Shown here piece after piece: positions 21,901-64,000 of a stretch of 64,000 nucleotides of DNA; within the stretch, counting starts at the first letter, position 1, and every line of letters starts with the position of its first letter. The position numbers and the translations under genes are program-made. The DNA comes from Saururus chinensis. Its lineage: Eukaryota > Streptophyta > Magnoliopsida > Piperales > Saururaceae. The notes beneath the pieces are model-generated. The model ran no database searches, was not told the origin of the DNA, and saw only the letters and a program-made list of their open reading frames with translations. The stretch is taken from the NCBI GenBank assembly GCA_035235625.1, contig CP141144.1:29199014-29263013 (forward strand), given 5' to 3'.

Positions 21901-22187
21901 CATATGTCATGCCATGACATATGCCACCCACGAGCCAAACCTAGTTCAAGGAGGAAGCGGCACGTGATGCGACATGGAGTTGAATTGTAGAAGACATAAT
22001 CATCCTTGGGTAGAACACTACTAAGTTGTACATGAATACTTTATACAAAAGCAAAATGAGCAAGGAAATGACTACTAATTAAAGCTTTAGTCTACTCATA
22101 CTCACATACTAGTCATAAACAAACCCACACATAGCTAAATTCACTTTTATCCAACAATGGTTGCAAAGAAATTGTGAAGTAAAGTCA

Positions 22188-22188
<1 letters not shown>

Positions 22189-22278
<90 letters not shown>
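22189..22278. repeat. Compound microsatellite (GT)11(AT)34
   Basis: Eleven GT units (22189-22210) run directly into about 34 AT units (22211-22278). The open reading frame across it is an artefact of the repeat. Confidence 0.95.
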
Positions 22279-25559: not shown

Positions 25560-26616
25560 CTACCATAAGACTTTCACCAGTGGGATCACTTTGTGTCTAA
25601 GGGTCTTCTCCTTCTTGTCCAATGTACGCACCAGAGCCTCCACATAAAATAGATCCTCACTAAGCTCCAACGGTTCAAAATCTAGCACATGGGATGGATC
25701 CGGCTCGTACTTCCCAAGAAGTGAAACATAGAACTCATTATGAATGTTCATGAGCTGAGGATGTAGGTCCACACGATATGCCACAGTACCAATGCGCTCT
25801 AGGACTTGAAAGTGTCCAATAAATCTAGGAGATAGTTTTCCCTTCTTGCCAAAACAAACAACATCATGATTAGGAGAGATTTTCAATAACACATCATCAC
25901 CCACATCAAACTCTAGGTCCTGCTGTCTCTTGTTGGCATAGCTCTTTTGATTACTTTGTGTCTTTTCAACCTCTCCCGAATGAGTTAGATCTTTTCCACT
26001 AATTGTTGAATGAGCTTGGGACCAGTAACAAGATATTCCCCAACCTCACTCTAGCAAAGGAGAGATTGGCACAGACATCGATAAAGTATCTCAAAAGTTG
26101 TTATCTTAATGCTCGCCTGATAACTGTTGTTGTAAGCAAACTCTGCCAAAGGTAGGTGTTGCTCCCAACTTCCTTTCCACTTAAGTATACACCCTCGGAG
26201 CATATCCTTAAGAGTTTTGCCCATCAGTCTGGGGGTGATAGGTTAAGCTAAGATGCAATGATGTACCCAAGGCCTTCTAGAAACTCTAGCAAAACTAGGA
26301 GGTGAATGAAGGATCACGGTTGGAAACAATAGACACAGGAACACCATGCAACCACACAACTTCCTTTACAAATAAGGCAACTAGCATGTCTAAGGGAGTA
26401 GTCATCCTTATTGAAATGAAATGCACAGACTTGGTGAGTCAAGTGACAATGACCCACACTGCGTCGTTACCGCTCAGCTATCTCGGGAGTCTAGAAACAA
26501 GTTTCATTGCTACGTTCTCTCACTTCCACTCCAGGATGGGAAGGGGTTGAAGCATACCACCCATATGGCAATGCTCTACCTTAACTTGCTGACATACAAG
26601 GCATTTGGACACAAAG
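25560..26616 (-). pseudogene. Tekay-like integrase C-terminus
   Basis: The right half carries decayed integrase core sequence (about 26421-26616). The left half encodes the SH3-like/chromodomain-like end: LSPRFIGHFQVLERIGTVAY and PLELSEDLFYVE, followed by KEKTLRHKVIPLVKVLW. A further piece of the same integrase (GGTKMYHDGKMTFWWSGMKK) lies at 29788-30030 beyond the solo LTR. Confidence 0.8.
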
Positions 26617-37103: not shown

Positions 37104-37417
37104 CTCACTGGTTCACTGGTTCCGGGACTGAGATTGATTGCACAATCAATATATATTCCTTTTTCTTCTAAAAAGTTTCCATCAATAACTCCCCCTTCTT
37201 CGTCTTCTTCCCAAATTGATTCTCTAGTTTTTGAGAATGCAAGGTTCTGGCTAGGCAGTGACATGCCTTGAATAAAAAACTTCTCCTTGGTGAAGCAGTG
37301 AATCATCCATAGAAATAACTTATATTTATCCCAGGTTGGTGGTTTATTTCTAAAGCATTTTTCAGCAACTCTTCCACCTGTTATGGCATTCATTAAATTT
37401 TGTGAACGAAGATCAGA
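37104..37417 (-). CDS. Exon of an unrecognised host gene
   Basis: On the minus strand an acceptor-like AAATAG precedes a 314-base open stretch reading SDLRSQNLMNAITGGRVAEK, then PPTWDKYKLFLWMIHCF, KEKFFIQGMSLPSQN, an acidic segment ESIWEEDEEGGVID, and INLSPGTSEPV. It ends at GAG followed by GTATAG, a good donor. Varied amino-acid use, an uninterrupted frame and splice-like borders suggest a real or recently lost exon. I do not recognise the family, and retrotransposon origin is not indicated. Confidence 0.45.
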
Positions 37418-37724: not shown

Positions 37725-37792
37725 CTCACCATTTGCCACCGATATAGGTTCGCCGAGAGGTGGAGAGAGACATGTGGTCTTGCAAATGGCCA
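37725..37792 (-). CDS. Probable upstream exon of the same unrecognised gene
   Basis: The minus strand reads VAICKTTCLSPPLGEPISVA then NGE, ending exactly at GAG followed by GTAATC (donor). The intron to the 37104-37417 exon would be 307 bases. The 5' border is uncertain: going further upstream the frame meets a stop inside hairpin unit 1, so an acceptor or another start must intervene. Confidence 0.35.
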
Positions 37793-37797
37793 CCTTC

Positions 37798-37906
37798 TTG
37801 CTTCTACAAGATTGTACAAGCAAGGAACTTCAAGAGCTCATGGCTGATTCGCCGAATCAGTCATGAACTCTTGAACTTCCTTTACTGTACAACCTCCTAG
37901 AAGGAG
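37798..37906. repeat. Foldback hairpin unit 1
   Basis: Two arms of about 54 bases meet at CTGATTCG-C-CGAATCAG (37844-37860) with almost no loop. Arm features are CTTCTACAAG...TTGTACA and AACTTCAAGAGCTCATGGCTGATTCG against its complement TGTACAACCTCCTAGAAGG. About 85 percent of the arm pairs by eye. Confidence 0.8.
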
Positions 37907-37929
37907 GAAGATGTTGAATAGTAGACATT

Positions 37930-38040
37930 CCTGCTTCTAGAAGGTTGTAGCATCACTGAAGCTCAAGAGATCATGACTGATTCACTAAATCAGCCATGAA
38001 CCCTTGAACTTCAACAATGCTACAACCTCCTAGCAAGAGG
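37930..38040. repeat. Foldback hairpin unit 2
   Basis: Left arm 37930-37982 (GCTTCTAGAAGGTTGTAGCA...GCTCAAGAGATCATGACTGATT), five-base loop, right arm 37988-38040 (AATCAGCCATGAACCC...CAATGCTACAACCTCC). It is homologous to unit 1 and shifted by about 132 bases. Size and pairing are compatible with a small-RNA precursor or a foldback repeat. Confidence 0.8.
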
Positions 38041-38069
38041 CATTTGTACTATTTAACATTGGGCACCTT

Positions 38070-38187
38070 CATGCTTCTAGGATGTTGTAGCATCAATGAA
38101 GCTCAAAAGATCATTGTTGAAGTTCAAGAGTTCCCAAATCAGCCATGAAACCCTTGAGCTTCATCAATGCTACAACCTAATAGAAAG
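38070..38187. repeat. Foldback hairpin unit 3 (with extra arm segment)
   Basis: The arms GTTGTAGCATCAATGAAGCTCAA and its near-complement TTGAGCTTCATCAATGCTACAAC pair over 23 bases with two mismatches. The middle holds an additional GTTGAAGTTCAAGAG piece that resembles the complement of a right arm, so the unit looks rearranged. The spacer TGTACTATTTAACATTG occurs both before and after it. Confidence 0.75.
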
Positions 38188-38599
38188 AGGAAGATGTACT
38201 ATTTAACATTGAGCACCACTGATAGCTATCTAATGATAGCTATGCTAAGGAGTGTTGACTCCTTATGTTTCCCCTCCTCCTTTCTCTTGCGAGCTTGGGA
38301 CCAGCAATGGCGGAGTTAAAAAAAAATTATTATGCACATAAAAAAAAAGACTAAGTGAACATACTTGATAGGCTGATAAAATGTGATAAGTAGACAAGTC
38401 AAAGTCAAACTATTAAATGTGATAAGCTAAATTTTAAAACAAATTCAATGATAATAAACACAAAGACCGATGCATAACATATGAGAAGTTATAAATATAC
38501 GAGGATTATAAGTCCCAAATACATCAATTTACTGGTGGTATATGGAAATATTCCCCAATTGCATCTCAAATACTATTACGAATAATTCTCATCCCTACA
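38188..38599. other. AT-rich stretch with short palindromes, no gene
   Basis: Contains TAAGGAGTGTTGACTCCTTA (8-base arms, 38246-38265) and a pair of ATAGCTAT palindromes just before it. The rest, to the left end of the Harbinger coding region, shows nothing further. No Harbinger left terminal repeat was found here. Confidence 0.4.
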
Positions 38600-39715
38600 T
38601 CATCCCTCACAATACAAGGGCCTTGAATTTCATCCACTTCTAATTATGGGAACAACTTTTTGTTCTCCCAACGGTGGAACATAGTGTCGATGAGGTCTGG
38701 ATCATTAGTAGCACCTTGTTTCTCTTTTATAAAGTTGTGTATTGCCATTGTAACTAAGATAATCTTAACTTGAGATTCAAAACAATATGGAGAGAACTTG
38801 ATCAATATCTTCCAACGTTCCTTCCAAACCCCAAATGTTCTCTGAATGATATTTCTAAGGCACGAATAAAGTTGACTAAACTTCTCCTTCCTGCCCCTAG
38901 GGCCACGTTGCCAGAATTCTAGAACATGGTATCAGGTTCCCTTATAAGGCCCAAGGTAACCAATCTTATTTGGGTAACCTGCATCAATGACATAATATTT
39001 CCCTTGTGGTGGCCTAGGAAACAAGGAGAGTTGATCTACTACAGCATGAGAAAAGACCCTAGAATCATGAGCTGAACCCTCCCAACCTGCCACTGCAAAT
39101 ACAAACCTCACACTAAAGTCACAAACGGCCATTATATTTTGAGTAACCTTTCTTGATCTCCCCCTATAAGCTTGTTGCTCTTCGATGGTACAACTGCTTC
39201 TACATGAGTAACGTCTATCGCTCCTATACAATTTCTAAACCGTGGATAGTACTTCCTCTTACTCCTAATATAGTTAGGTGTGTGATGTGGGTTAATAATT
39301 GGCTTGATCATCTCTACAGCCCATGTATACAATGCATCTAGTACTTTATTAAAGTGTCGGCACACAGTTTCTTATGAATGGGACATAAGATGACCTATAA
39401 CATAATGACCTTCTCTATGACCACAAATTTGTTGAAAATTCATCATTTGCTCCTCTACTGTAACATGTCTTGTGTCCTTGAACAATTGTTTCAACCTCAT
39501 TTCATAACACAACAACATTATTCATGCGACACATATTATGACAAATTTCTTTAGACGCATTCAACATGTCATATACTATGTTCTAACCCCTATCTCGATG
39601 CATGTGTACAACATTCCTTGGGGGGAATGCCGTTCTTAAATAATACATGATTGTCGCGTCTTCACTTGTGTCAAATACAAGCTCTTCCCAAGTGAATGAC
39701 ATAGTACCAATAATA
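38600..39715 (-). pseudogene. PIF/Harbinger transposase (DDE_4 nuclease), degenerate
   Basis: Minus-strand order: MSFTWEELVFDTSED start near 39705; SQETVCRHFNKVLDALY-like helix-turn-helix region near 39340-39370; FRNCIGAIDVTHVEAVVPS, holding the first catalytic Asp (GAIDGTH in the family); NIMAVCDFSVRFVFAVAGWEG then SAHDSRVF, holding the second Asp; YVIDAGYPNKIGYLGPYKGT; then the C-terminal LRNIIQRTFGVWKERWKIL with the catalytic Glu replaced (family NVIERTFG, here NIIQRTFG) and MAIHNFI. About 370 codons in family terms, with several in-frame stops and at least one frame change between 39130 and 39620. The loss of the Glu and the stops mean it is inactive. Confidence 0.85.
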
Positions 39716-40169
39716 ATTTCTAATAAAATTTATATTACACTCTAAAATGTACAGATAATAAGGTAGTATTACAAATCATGGTATATGTAAGCCATCATCA
39801 AACAAACAAACATAAATGATAAAAACACACAAACCCATGCATAACAAATAAACCAAAATGTTTAATTATGTGGTAAGCCATCATAAATCAAACAAACATA
39901 AATGATAATAAACACACAAACCCTTGTATAACAAACAAACAAACATGTTCCATTGTTAAATAGGTCCCAATCCAACTTAATTATGTGGTAAGAAATCATA
40001 AATCAAACAAACAGAATTGATAAACAAACAGACCTATGCATAAAACATAAGCATGAAGTTTAGAGTATTACATAAACTCCTTAATTGCCTAAACAATACT
40101 GTTGCAGATAATCCTATTAGAAATGAAGGAACTATAGGGAAAGATAACTAATCTGAATTTGAAGCATGG

Positions 40170-41335
40170 AAAACATCACACAACCAATTGATCCTCAACC
40201 CTGGAGCATTACCCAATGCCAACCAAATGCACCTAAACTTTGTCTTCATAAACTTGGAGAGTGTGATGGTGAAAATGTGGTCGTCTTCTCAGTACTCAGG
40301 CATTGCCATCATCAAGTCAATTACCATCTTATACTGTTCCACTTCATATTGGTCCTTATTTGCATGGGAGCTTTCTCGGGCAATTTCATTCCGATCAGAC
40401 ATGGCAAAAGCATTGGACTCACCAATTGATGTAGAAGTGCTTCGAGACTTCCGCTTGCGAGGTGGCCATTCATTTTCACTTTGTGGTGGTGAAGGCATGG
40501 AAGTCCCAGTAGGCAGTGAAGTAGGGCTACCACTTGGTGTGTGAGCACTACCAGCTTGACTTGTACCACCCTACATTCTAGGGATGTAGTTAGGCAATTG
40601 GACGCCATCATCATCCTCATCTCTCAAGCTATCAATGAATGCACCAGCATGTCTCACTGTGTGTTCTTCCCAATCCATACATGTCTCGTCAGACTCTCAT
40701 CACCATGCTCATCACTACTCTCATCAACTAGGATATATGCTGAGGCAGATGCTGGGACTAGGGCTGAGGCTGAAGCTGTGGATGAGGGACGAGGTTTTTC
40801 TCCTAAATGGAAGTAACTTGCATGGCTACCTGTTATATGGGCCCAGCCATATACAGTGTATAAATTACCCTCTGACTCCTCATCATACCCCCACTTCATG
40901 AGACGACTAACATACTTATGCTTCTATATCTCATATCACATCAATACACAAATTATCATTTCATAGTTGATCCAATATTTAAATATTACTTACCATTAAG
41001 AAAATGCTTCATGCATCTTTAGAAAGGATGAATGTGTTTGTATGCTCATTCCACCCAATGCCAGTCATCTCCCTTAAAGCCCCCCAAGCTTAATAGAATC
41101 TTCTTCCAGAATCATAGTGATTTTTTAGCATGTCCTTATCCAAATCAATGTGATGCTCATTCTTGAACATGTCAATTACTAAATTCCAACACTCAAGATC
41201 AAGGCTTCTCCCTTTCCTATGGCCCTTATTAATTGCATGGGCCATATAAGATAAGAATGCATAATGAACTGGCTTGTCCCATTTAACATTTTTTGCTTAC
41301 CTTTTGCTTCCCTCAACAGGATTGTGGGGACACAT
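40170..41335 (-). pseudogene. Harbinger Myb/SANT-like accessory gene, degenerate
   Basis: A minus-strand stretch near 41335-41000 reads KWDKPVHYAFLSYMAHAINK, GRSLDLECWNLVIDMFKNEH, DLDKDMLKNHYDSGRRFY and WGALREMTGIGWNEHTNTF, a Myb_DNA-bind_3 (trihelix-like) domain. GTAAGT near 41000 could be a donor, followed by a second exon (about 40900-40180) with MKWGYDEESEGNLYTVYGWA and a basic PPRKRKSRSTSTS segment. In plant PIF/Pong elements this protein pairs with the transposase for terminal-repeat binding and nuclear import. Frame changes and stops are present. Several overlapping frames on both strands here are shadows. Confidence 0.75.
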
Positions 41336-51609: not shown

Positions 51610-52680
51610 TCAGGGCGGCTGGTAGATATTAACATTGACTCTTCTCTTAAGTCTCCAAAAAGATGATGCAGAAAAATTAGAAGGCATGACTTGATTATGG
51701 GTTGATGCTACAAAAGATGGACCTCTATCATAAGCATCAAATCTAAAATTGTCTACCATAAAATATTCAGCATTAGAAGTTGCAGGCAAATGGTTAGACA
51801 CATCAAAAATATTTAGTTGCACTTTCATGTTCCCAAAGGTCATCTCCATTACCCCCGTCCTACAATTTATGCATGCATTAGCTGTGGCAAAAAAAGGACG
51901 ACCTAGAATGATAGGAATCTGATATGTGGGGTTGGCACCAGTTTCCATATCTAAGACAATAAAATCAACAGGGAAAAAGAACTGGTCAACCTTCACTAAG
52001 ACATCCTCAATGACTCCCCGAGGCTTACGCACAGAATGATCGGCTAGCTGCAAGGTAACTGATGTAGGCTGCAATTCACCTAACCCTAGTTTCTCATACA
52101 CTGAGTAAGGGAGTAGATTGACACTCGCACCAAGGTCAAGGAGGGCTCTATGGATGGAGTGATCACCTATGACACAAGAAATAGTGGGTACTCCAAGGTC
52201 CTTATACTTAGGTGGGGTGTCAAACTTCAAAAGAGAACTAACTTGCTCGATGAGAAAGACCTTCTTAAACACATGGGTCTTGGATTTACGTTTATGAGTG
52301 CATAGGTCTTTGATGAACTTAGCATAAGTAGGGACTTGCTTAATGGCTTCTAAGAAGGGGAGATTAATTTTGACTTGTTTAAAAGTCTCAAGAATCTCAT
52401 CAGTCCTAGCTGTGCTTAAATGGTGGGGCCATGTCAAGACACTGAGGAAAAGGTGCCCTAGGGATATAAGATTCCTCGGAAGTGGTCTTAGACTGTGGCT
52501 CTGAGGAAGGGGAAGGAGATACAAACTCCTTCTCATGTGGTGCACTAACTTCTACTTGAGGTTCATTAGGGGCTGCCCTCTCGAACTCCTCACTCCTATC
52601 ATCTGTCACTAGTGTCCCCCCAACACTCTTGTCAACAATCCTCCCACTCCTAAGGGTCATTATGAAATTAACTTATTCAT
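51610..52680 (-). pseudogene. Athila-like protease region
   Basis: Contains LPFLEAIKQVPTYAKFIKDL and the retropepsin-like block HRALLDLGASVNLLPYSVYE, then KLGLGELQPTSVTLQLADHS, VDFIVLDME and IPIILGRPFFATANACI. The DTG/DLG-type active site and the ILGRPF flap-side motif are standard for Athila/Tat proteases. Part of the gag-pro reading unit; few breaks. Confidence 0.85.
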
Positions 52681-54182
52681 TAGAGGGAGGAGCCCCCTCT
52701 ACCTGAAATTGACCTTTAGGGTTTGGTAGGGGTTGACTTGGCAACGTCCTCATCTCTCTCTTGTTAATAACATTAGCTAGTTGTTCCAATTTGGGCTTCT
52801 AACTTTGCTATAGATTGTGTGTGAGAGTGGAGGAGTTGGGATTGAGATTGAAGGCCTTGCAAGGCACTCAAGACCTTTTCTTCAAAACTTAGACTCCTAT
52901 TGGATTGGACATATGGAGGTTGCACTTGAGGTTGGTGGATAGGGGCTTGTAGGACTTGGAATGGTTTCTTAGGGAGTTGGTTACCCATAACCCCTTGGTT
53001 TTGTGTCTGCCAAGAAAAGTTAGGATGATTCCTCCACCTAGGGTTATATGTATTTGAAAATAGATTGTTCTTAACCCTAGGGAAGGATTGGGTGGAATTT
53101 ACATTGTCTTGGACAAGCTCAGGAAATTGAGAGGTAGAGGGCCACTCAATGATAGTATGGGCTAGGCTAAGGCATATTGTGCATGCATCTTGAGTGAAGG
53201 GAGTGGGTTGATGGGTTGAAGTCATAAGGAGGTCCAGCTTCCTACTCAAAGTATCAACTTTGAAGGAGAGGTCTAATGGGTTTTTGACTTCATACAAGCC
53301 ACCCCTAGAGGGGGCATTGTTCAAGGTAGATAATCTACTCTCATTTCTATTCAACGCAGCATGTTGAAGAGAATTTTCACCCAAGTCCTCAAAAAGTTTT
53401 CATGCCTCATTTTCATTTTTTAGCAAAAAGGTACCTCCACAACTTGCATCAACAAGATGACAGTTTTGTTCAGTAAGACCCTCATAAAAACGTTGCACTA
53501 ATTGCCACTTAGGGACAGCATGATGAGGACACTTCCTAAGAAGGTCCTTAAGTCTATCCCAACTCTCATGGAACTGTTCAGTGGGAAGTTGAGCAAAAGT
53601 GGTTATGGCCTTTCTCATTTGGTTGGTCTTACCTATGGGGAAGTACTTTTTAAGGAACTCTTGTTGCATTTGGGCCCATGTTGTGATAATGTTTGGATCT
53701 AATGAGTGAAGCCATTCCTTAGCCTTATCTTTCAATGTGAAAGGAAAAAGGCAAAGTTTAACAGCTTCATCGGTTAAATTTGAGAGCTTAAAAGTTGTGC
53801 AAAGTTCTAAGAAGTCATCTAGGTGCCTATATGGGTTTTCATTATTAAGCCCATAAAAGGATGGAAGCATTTGAATAACATTAGGCTTAATCTCATAATT
53901 TTGAGCAGCAACTGCTGGCAACCTAATGCATGAAGGAGAGGTGTACTCATTGGGAGTGTAATACTCCCTTAGAGCTTTAAGTGGTGCATCTACTAACTGA
54001 TGTTCAGCCATTATGGGGTTAGAAGTAGTGTGGGTGGAGGAATTGGTGGGAGAGTTTGGGGGTGTAGGGATGTAGGTGGAGGGCAACTCAGCTCTCCTAG
54101 ATGTCCGCTCAGGCTCAGGGTCAAATGGTACTAATCGGGGGAGTAAGGAGCGATGACCACGCATACACCACAAACACACCAC
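52681..54182 (-). pseudogene. Athila-like gag
   Basis: Order on the minus strand: Pro/Thr-rich leader (TSRRAELPSTYIPTPPNSPT), gag core (MLPSFYGLNNENPYRHLDDF, LTDEAVKLCLFPFTLKDKAK, EWLHSL, FLKKYFPIGKTNQMRKAI, FHESWDRLKDLLRKCPHH), YEGLTEQNCHLVDASCGGTF, then the NPRWRNHPNFSW block and the AKLEAQIG tail. Close to a full Athila gag, with about two breaks. Confidence 0.88.
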
Positions 54183-58277: not shown

Positions 58278-59690
58278 CTATCTCAATGTGTTTTGTTCTA
58301 TTGTGAAACACTGGATTTGAATCCATGCTGATTGCAGAAATAAAAATATAAGAGGTATAGAAGGAAAGGAAATATGAAGAGCTTTATACAAAGAATATAA
58401 CCAAATATTATCTACAGCTGTATGAGAGATTGACCTATATTCAGCTTCAGCTGAAGATTTGGCCACTGTTTCTTGTTTCTTAGTACTCCAAATAATAGGA
58501 TTGTGACCCACAAAGACACAAAAGCCACTAATAGACCTTCTGTTATTGATATATCCTGCCAATCAGCATCAGTGTAGGCTGAGATCTCATAGGTGGAGGG
58601 CTGAAGTTGTACACCATAGGACAGTGTTCCTTGGATATACCTCAAAATTCACTTTAACAGCCTGGAAATGGATTTCACAAGGTGCTTGCATGAACTGACA
58701 TACATCATTCACAGCATAAGAGAGGTCAGGTCTTGTAATAGTTAAATTCTGAAGGCTCTCAACAAGGCTCTTGTACAGTTGAGGATTAGTGAACGGCTTA
58801 TCTACAAGGAGAGGCAGTTTTGTTTTAGAATGAGAGATCATGGAGCAATGTTTGCTGTAATCCATGGATGCACGATGGAGAATCTCCCTGACATATTGAG
58901 GTTGAGATAAAAAGAGATAAGTAATATTCCAAGTAGCTTCAATACCGTAGAAGTAATGAAGTTTACCAAGGTCCTTTACAGCAAATGTCTTCCAAAGGTC
59001 AGTAATAAAGTGCTGGATATATGTTGTGTTGGAGCCTGTGATCAATATATCATCAACATAGACAAGAATATGTGTAATTTTATTGGAGTCTTTTGTGTTA
59101 GGGTTGCAGGGATGCATTTACTATGATAAGGTTAGGTGAATTCCTGTTGTTTGAGAAAGATGTTATGAACAAAGTTGGCATTATCCTTAACTTCTGTTTA
59201 CTTTCCCTGCCATACCTCACTCAAAGGTAGGGCATTTCCCATTGATATAGGAACTTGTACTAGAAACAATGGCATCTCCAATTCTAGCCCCGACTTGTAA
59301 ATTTTATTATGACCATTCCTCAATGGTTGTCTGCGGAGCCCATTTTCAAGAAGTGTATCCACGGCTTCTTGTACCAACTTTTCCTGACACATTACTAATT
59401 CCCCTGGCGTGGATCTACTTGTTAATATTTAGCAAATAAGGATAAATTAGCTGAAATTGACTTAAAACCATGAGTAGTAAGAAACTTTGCAAGTCGTAGA
59501 TACCAAGCTCGTGGGGCTTTCTTAAGGCCATATAAGATACCAAGCTCGTGCAGCTTGCTTAAGGCCATATAAGGCTTTGTTTTTGCACACATTATTGGGA
59601 AACATTGGATCAATAAAACCTCTAGGATGAACCACATAAATATATATATAGAAATGCTCCCATGAAGGATTGCATTTGAGATAGCCAATG
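58278..59690 (-). pseudogene. Copia RT and RNase H, decayed
   Basis: [19 protein letters not shown] near 59530-59600, the catalytic ILVYVDDILITGS near 59030-59075, LGKLHYFYGIEA, and the RNase H block ISAYTDADW...SAEAEYRS near 58430-58590. Several breaks, and an inserted segment between about 59115 and 59410. Confidence 0.85.
59200..59390 (-). other. Plastid DNA chimera: rpoC1 and rpl2 pieces joined
   Basis: The minus strand 59390-59291 translates to [19 protein letters not shown], then GHNKIYKS, matching plastid rpoC1 ([20 protein letters not shown]...GHNKVYKS). Directly adjoining, 59290-59210 reads [12 protein letters not shown] then [12 protein letters not shown], matching plastid rpl2 exon 1 ([20 protein letters not shown]). 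It continues into GTGAGGTATGG, which resembles the rpl2 group II intron start GTGCGGTTTG. The two genes are not neighbours in plastid genomes, so the piece is a joined nuclear plastid insertion. It lies inside the Copia RT region and has itself decayed. Confidence 0.72.
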
Positions 59691-62856: not shown

Positions 62857-63375
62857 CTACTCAAAACAGCCATCATACAGCAATGGAACCTTTATCCAAG
62901 GAGGAAATACCTTAACCCTAGACCACCTCTCTAGATCAATCTTAGCCAGTTGAGCCACTGCATGCACCACACCATTCCCTTTGTGGTAGATATGCCCGAA
63001 AGAAGTCGACTTCAGCAACACCAAATCATTGAACACCTCCTTTGGCAAACCCATAGGCGATCTCAAGAAGTCAATTTTGTCATTGAACAAGTTTACAATA
63101 TGGAGACAACCCCCTTTAAATAGAACTCTATTGAAACTCTGCTCCTTAACGAACTTAACCGTCTGGACAGATGCCAAAACCTGAGCCTCAAATGGACCTA
63201 AAGCCCCCTCCTCCACCAGGTGCAGGCAAGCCAGAAGCTGCCCCGAAGAGTTCTTTGCACAGGCACCCACCCCAATTTTCTTCTTAACAAACACCGCGGC
63301 ATCAAAGTTTGCCTTCATACAACCGTCAAGGGGGGAGCCCACTTCCTCGGGAGAAGCCTTGGAAATGACCACGGA
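62857..63375 (-). pseudogene. RNase H-like (RVT_3) remnant, probably from a plant LINE
   Basis: A 171-codon open frame. CMKANFDAAVF with the first catalytic Asp (family KxNxDGA), then VGACAKNSSGQLLACLHL, ALGPFEAQVLASVQTVKF with the Glu (family AExxAL), LFKGGCLHIVNLFNDK where the family has E(S/T)D(C/S), and VHAVAQLAKIDLERW (family NxxAHxLA). The order is that of the RNase H domain that ends many plant LINEs and occurs in stand-alone host copies. The second Asp (D of ESD) appears replaced by Gly, so activity is unlikely although the frame is open. No RT is visible upstream. It lies between the Copia element and the window end, probably still in the NECAP-like intron. Confidence 0.65.
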
Positions 63376-64000
63376 TTGTCAATATATGAGCATTCTCTAT
63401 TTTATGTCCTCTGCAAACAGCAATAACTAATGTAGTCATTGACTTCCTTCTAGAATTCCCTAGAAGTGCCAACCAACTTGGTGATGAAAGGACATAGCAC
63501 ACAACTATTTGTAGAATTCATAACTCCTATTTGGATGTAATTAACTGTAACTGGAAGCAAGTCACTTCCAGATGATGTATTTATGGTTGTCCACTGTCAA
63601 TAATCAAACGTAATTTTGAATCCTATAATTGGTTTTTCTTATTGTCAATTTTTTCGTTTTTCTTTACTGAATTCATTGTTTTAGTGTTGGAAGACCTTTA
63701 CAAAGTGATAGTGATATAAACCCAACGAATCTGTACAACTGGGTTTTGGTTGGATGGAGCATGTGGGCCTCATCCAAGGCTCACTTGTGCCCACATTTCT
63801 AGTCTAATCAAACTTGGAAGGTTTTGCTGGAAAAATTTGTTAGGTGATTATCATTTTCTTTTTAAGAAATCAACCTTAGTAACTAAGTTGGTTTAATGTA
63901 TGCACTATCTCTTGATGCTCAAGATGTACCTTTTATTTCCCTCAATAATGTGTCTAAAATGAATTGTTGAAGGCAATTCAATAAATCATAAATTCTGTTG
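63376..64000. other. No gene recognised to window end
   Basis: AT-rich. I looked for the next NECAP-like exon (ADEWN..KWAW text) and did not find it. A short inverted pair GGAAGCAAGTCACTTCC occurs near 63553-63569. Confidence 0.4.

Follow-up and report, generated by a model that had tools for sequence, protein, structure and literature searches.

A probable twister motif precedes three tandem foldback hairpins on the minus strand of a plant locus

Hammerhead and twister are the only classes of small self-cleaving ribozymes reported in plants, where their function is unknown, according to an excerpt of a 2023 review (PMC10226581). Among twisters, the closest described relative of the motif presented here is the rice twister Osa-1-4 (RF03160, PDB 4OJI; excerpt of PMC6154101), with which it has in common the P1, P2 and P4 stems and the lack of P3. 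Type-P1 twisters also share with it the core formed by UAA at the cut, the GGUCCCAAGC loop and GAGGG, whereas the motif described below differs from them in scoring below the gathering cut-off, in having a weak U-rich P1 and in preceding long tandem hairpins. Small self-cleaving ribozymes also reside in genomic mobile elements, namely RTE retrotransposons with a 5' twister (excerpt of PMC7761336) and retrozymes with hammerheads (excerpt of PMC4918200). Our locus resembles both in carrying such a ribozyme motif in the genome, and may resemble the former in its placement at an element's 5' end, but its surroundings revealed neither a reverse transcriptase nor a further ribozyme copy, and a long hairpin array is present instead.

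The hairpins themselves resemble other kinds of loci. Young MIRNA or siRNA loci arisen by inverted duplication, as portrayed in part of PMC1790633, share with the units studied here their small loops and nearly perfect pairing over arms some 50 bp long; in contrast to them, this array comprises three tandem units, adjoins a ribozyme motif and yielded no gene of origin. Tandem MIRNA clusters (in the relevant part of PMC3327684) likewise present homologous hairpins in a row on the same strand, but the array here has no 21-nt block invariant in all its units. Finally, MITE-derived MIR loci (in a passage of PMC10004981) share with it a foldback close to a DNA transposon, yet a search for terminal inverted repeats gave nothing convincing at this array. 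The features of the locus, which lies in a 64-kb stretch of DNA (the window), are listed below in the order in which a minus-strand RNA would contain them.

38268..38322, minus strand: type-P1 twister motif (Rfam RF03160; cmscan 40.4 bits, full model 1-68)
38247..38264, no strand assigned: short perfect inverted repeat with a 4-nt loop between arms of 7 bp (arms by eye)
38222..38243, no strand assigned: short perfect inverted repeat with a 4-nt loop between arms of 9 bp (arms by eye)
38064..38196, minus strand: hairpin unit 3, first in minus-strand order, -58.4 kcal/mol, broken apex
37930..38040, minus strand: hairpin unit 2, -74.9 kcal/mol, 52 pairs (8 of them G-U), 3-nt loop
37791..37913, minus strand: hairpin unit 1, -73.7 kcal/mol, 3-nt loop, base overlapping a candidate exon
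37730..37803, minus strand: candidate host exon whose start lies within the 3' arm of unit 1, with a putative GT donor at 37729 and an open frame
37104..37377, minus strand: candidate for the following host exon, hypothetical, its frame continuing that of 37730-37803

Architecture, strand and history of the hairpin array

The original prediction had described three homologous foldback units about 132 and 140 bases apart, and this description held: all the arm and spacer strings quoted in it were located in the sequence, the three tandem units occupied approximately positions 37785-38217 (borders judged by eye), and, measured from start to start, the left arms (family D3) were 133 and 140 bases apart and the right arms (D1, D4) 133 and 149-150. 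The loops of units 1 and 2, given as one to five bases, were corrected to 3 nt each on the minus strand. In the stem of unit 2, 46 of the 52 pairs formed a stretch with just one mismatch in it. Unit 3 harboured an additional arm-like copy of about 21 nt at its apex (approximately 38112-38133, within the aligned segment 38112-38142), which accounts for its broken upper stem.

The folding free energy of each unit, which had been proposed as a check on the hairpins, was calculated for both strands. Values for units 1, 2 and 3 were -59.4, -52.4 and -42.1 kcal/mol on the plus strand (z = -9.5, -9.3 and -5.2) and -64.9, -74.9 and -49.8 kcal/mol on the minus strand (z = -10.0, -13.2 and -6.4), the latter becoming -73.7, -74.9 and -58.4 with wider ends. 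None of 200 dinucleotide shuffles folded as well in any of the six folds (3 units, 2 strands), and the minus strand folded better than the plus strand in all three units. When 5,323 windows of 125 nt across the 64 kb were scanned for foldbacks and merged into loci, units 2 and 1 took the first two ranks, in that order, at a G+C content of only 0.42-0.45, and unit 3 came eighth. Four GC-rich sequences (0.60-0.74) and one TA repeat filled the five places between units 1 and 3.

The informative strand is the minus strand, a point missed in the original prediction. Transition-type differences between the arms read mostly as A·C mismatches in plus-strand RNA and as G·U wobbles in minus-strand RNA: counting once any difference common to several units, 13 of the 15 distinct transition-type differences in the arm alignment were G·T and 2 were A·C on the minus strand, and 13 further distinct differences were transversions, which pair on neither strand. 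The one-sided binomial p value for 13 of 15 was 0.0037, rising to 0.027 under an estimated expected G·T share of about 0.6, which allows for flanks rich in G+T (55% and 57% on the minus strand). The size of the excess depends on the counting method, with 18 G·T versus 2 A·C cells in a strand-neutral arm alignment of the three units, 22 versus 4 cells when counted by each unit's own axis, and 15 versus 4 cells (11 versus 4 distinct) on the unit 2 structure. Selection for RNA pairing or a transcription-linked mutation bias would explain the G·T excess and either of them would imply transcription of the minus strand; a strand-biased mutation process can also produce such an excess of G·U. Two-sided changes between units with pairing kept were found at 6 of the 52 pairs, and they lend mild support at most since 26 of 500 shuffles reached the observed number and the control, a weak one, involved three sequences and a structure derived from unit 2.

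Arm comparisons also informed about the order of events. Arm identities ranged overall from 0.64 to 0.87. Like arms of units 2 and 3 were 0.85 and 0.87 identical, and the two arms within any one unit 0.74-0.80. Because like arms are closer to each other than the arms within a unit, the hairpin form, judging from these identities, existed before units 2 and 3 parted and is thus older than their duplication.

A probable twister motif 5' of the hairpins

The original prediction overlooked a motif beside the array that alters the reading of the locus. An Rfam search at default settings reported nothing in the window. A permissive search of the array and its flanks gave a twister-P1 match that ran off the end of the stretch searched, and with more flank the full model was aligned. 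In the whole window, searched against 4,227 families, Rfam gave 4 matches at E values up to 1, and twister-P1 ranked first among them (E = 2.1e-5). Its score of 40.4 bits is lower than the Rfam gathering score of 67.2, and for this reason we refer to it as a motif and a homologue candidate, and not as a filed member of the family. It precedes the first hairpin by about 70 nt on the same (minus) strand, with the two short inverted repeats in between.

The Rfam alignment retained the conserved core, with UAA at the cut, the GGUCCCAAGC loop and GAGGG; cleavage is predicted between U 38318 and A 38317. RNAfold gave nested stems matching P1, P2 (CUCC/GGAG) and P4 (UUGC/GCAA), and the optional P3 was missing. 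P2 is an altered yet paired version of the consensus. In the RNAfold structure P1 borrows part of GAGGG; with GAGGG left free, P1 is weak (UUUU/GAAA), as it is in the Rfam alignment, which also contains one non-standard pair in P4 and at least one linker letter off consensus. As to the T1 and T2 pseudoknots, the alignment suggests that CCC in the P4 loop could pair with the GGG of GAGGG. The core pattern, in which GAGGG comes after GUCCCAAGC with at most one change, occurred at a single place in the 64-kb window, and a stricter version with a leading UAA, present on the minus strand, appeared once in total when the window was shuffled 200 times at its base composition. We regard the motif as a probable twister and a predicted ribozyme.

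Small-RNA potential of the stems

The proposal of a small-RNA hairpin locus was upheld in part: the fold is precursor-like and such a locus is plausible, but no named MIRNA found support. We applied duplex criteria as set out in part of PMC12594335 (up to 5 mismatches, no asymmetric bulge larger than 3, a 2-nt overhang and a length of 20-24 nt) to the end-paired 21-nt registers of the minus strand, and 31 of 31, 34 of 34 and 28 of 33 registers of units 1, 2 and 3 conformed to them, a result of little specificity because any long stem passes. No 21-nt block was invariant in all three units. Even in the least variable stretch of 21 columns, three columns (one of them a gap) varied over the three units. 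The best 21-nt stretch of the 3' arm, starting at alignment column 88, showed 1 base change from unit 2 to unit 3 and 7 changes in 21 positions from unit 1 to unit 2. Since no 21-nt block is constant among the units, a single conserved mature miRNA seems unlikely at this locus, and a mixed hairpin-siRNA output or a proto-MIRNA would be our better guess.

The original prediction recognised no known family, in agreement with the Rfam search, which yielded no MIRNA family at the gathering score in the 64-kb window. Sub-threshold MIRNA matches reached E values of 3.4e-6 and 7.1e-6 in short stretches, on a par with or better than that of the twister match, a point that counts against the latter. 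Those to MIR8706, MIR538, MIR172 and mir-5444 were rejected as generic long-hairpin scores, with mainly paired changes in the alignments shown; the MIR8706 and MIR538 matches, which rested mainly on pairing and not on common letters, were gone in the other stretches scanned, including the whole window. As far as the alignments tell, these MIRNA matches rest on simple pairing, whereas the twister match rests on conserved letters.

Searching the full-text literature with 24 stem words of 13-16 nt retrieved no known MIRNA family, and one stem 14-mer present in an osteoclast paper was taken as chance. A pattern scan of genome contigs found nothing. A viral contig matching a pattern with 18 specified bases was also attributed to chance: its likeness was limited to the word and a few adjoining bases, and 301 bases inspected by eye held no foldback partner. 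A coding origin of the arms, with a PPR-like peptide under consideration, was discarded after 8 peptides gave no Pfam match.

Competing readings of the locus and its neighbourhood

Directly 3' of the array on the minus strand lie the two candidate exons. Their borders are splice-like (judged by eye for the 37730-37803 exon), and the joined frame, checked with borders a few bases off, stays open, in line with the two probable host exons that had been proposed at this place; however, neither exon had a Pfam match, and comparison with the PDB brought up nothing convincing (best E = 0.027, for the 37104-37377 exon), which leaves the host gene hypothetical. Just upstream of the locus, and on the same strand, a broken Harbinger-type transposon with DDE_Tnp_4 fragments and a Myb/SANT-like domain was located at 38647-41296, which bears out the Harbinger element previously placed near the array. 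The borders of this transposon were looked for and not found.

The reading that we favour, as a tentative one, is that a host gene carries, in an intron or in its 5' leader, a ribozyme-headed hairpin RNA with stems that would feed Dicer-like enzymes. A host or read-through transcript would cross the locus, giving a minus-strand RNA in which the putative twister, a pair of short hairpins and then the three long ones in tandem stand immediately 5' of the candidate exon. Cleavage by the twister between 38318 and 38317 would generate an uncapped RNA with a 5' hydroxyl, beginning with the ribozyme, and Dicer-like enzymes would cut the long and nearly fully paired stems into mixed small RNAs, either hairpin siRNAs or an imprecise young MIRNA, with whatever targets these may have. 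The link between twister and hairpins is suggested by their adjacency at one locus. If it is real, a same-strand twister directly before tandem hairpins would offer a concrete role, the 5' trimming of a hairpin RNA. The stronger proposal that the twister fixes the 5' end of a plant RNA existing solely to offer tandem hairpins to Dicer-like enzymes, by which plant twisters would gain a job in small-RNA biogenesis, appears very doubtful to us. In a literature search for the combination, the terms 'twister' and 'microRNA precursor' did not occur together in any of the 10 papers listed with at least 4 of 5 search terms, a scope that does not prove absence from the literature.

The favoured reading has to be weighed against an ordinary young hairpin-siRNA or MIRNA cluster, formed by inverted and then tandem duplication, in which the twister would be coincidental or a dead remnant. 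The shape and size of the folds are indeed like those of plant precursors, an origin by inverted duplication has been described for Arabidopsis (in the part of PMC1790633 concerned), tandem duplication is common among plant MIRNA families according to an excerpt of PMC3327684, and the column-88 stretch is nearly constant (1 base) between units 2 and 3. Its 7 changes in 21 positions from unit 1 to unit 2 and the failure of any MIRNA family to reach the cut-off speak against such a cluster, as does a twister on the same strand only about 70 nt away whose core pattern occurs once in 64 kb, and we regard this explanation as rather unlikely.

A serious rival, if an unlikely one, is a non-autonomous mobile element with the twister as its 5' end and the hairpins as its body, or else a MITE-like foldback cluster. 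Conservation of truncated but competent twisters at the 5' end of RTE-superfamily retrotransposons is mentioned, as work in preparation, in a passage of PMC7761336, and the degenerate Harbinger-type transposase stands close by on the same strand. Against this, the search around the array, whose borders are uncertain, brought up no convincing terminal inverted repeats with a target-site duplication; what recurs of the 40 nt preceding the predicted cut, within 400-3500 nt downstream, is limited to three exact, AT-rich repeats of 8-10 nt; the few neighbouring minus-strand open reading frames included no reverse-transcriptase match; and array and twister block are each single, no second copy of either being present in the 64-kb window. 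Alternatively, the locus might be inert foldback DNA that is neither transcribed nor processed, and its twister a sub-threshold chance match or a relic. The divergence of the units (arm identities of 0.64-0.87), the partly broken unit 3, the broken transposons around and the twister score below the gathering threshold all fit this idea, but a wobble strand bias accompanied by a same-strand twister match (E = 2.1e-5) is not expected of inert DNA; we consider this explanation quite improbable.

Some minor observations were made elsewhere in the window. A plant snoR71 match at 53516-53621 was weak (27.8 bits versus a cut-off of 40, E = 0.22) and probably arose by chance. The TG/TA dinucleotide repeat at 22183-22249 forms a strong AT-rich foldback and gave a sub-threshold, probably spurious match to mir-297. 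Retroelement pieces, all on the minus strand, were distributed over 25560-26045, 51610-52551, 58587-59117 and 62857-63378, and comprised Tf2-1-like SH3, aspartyl protease, RVT_2 and RVT_3 domains.
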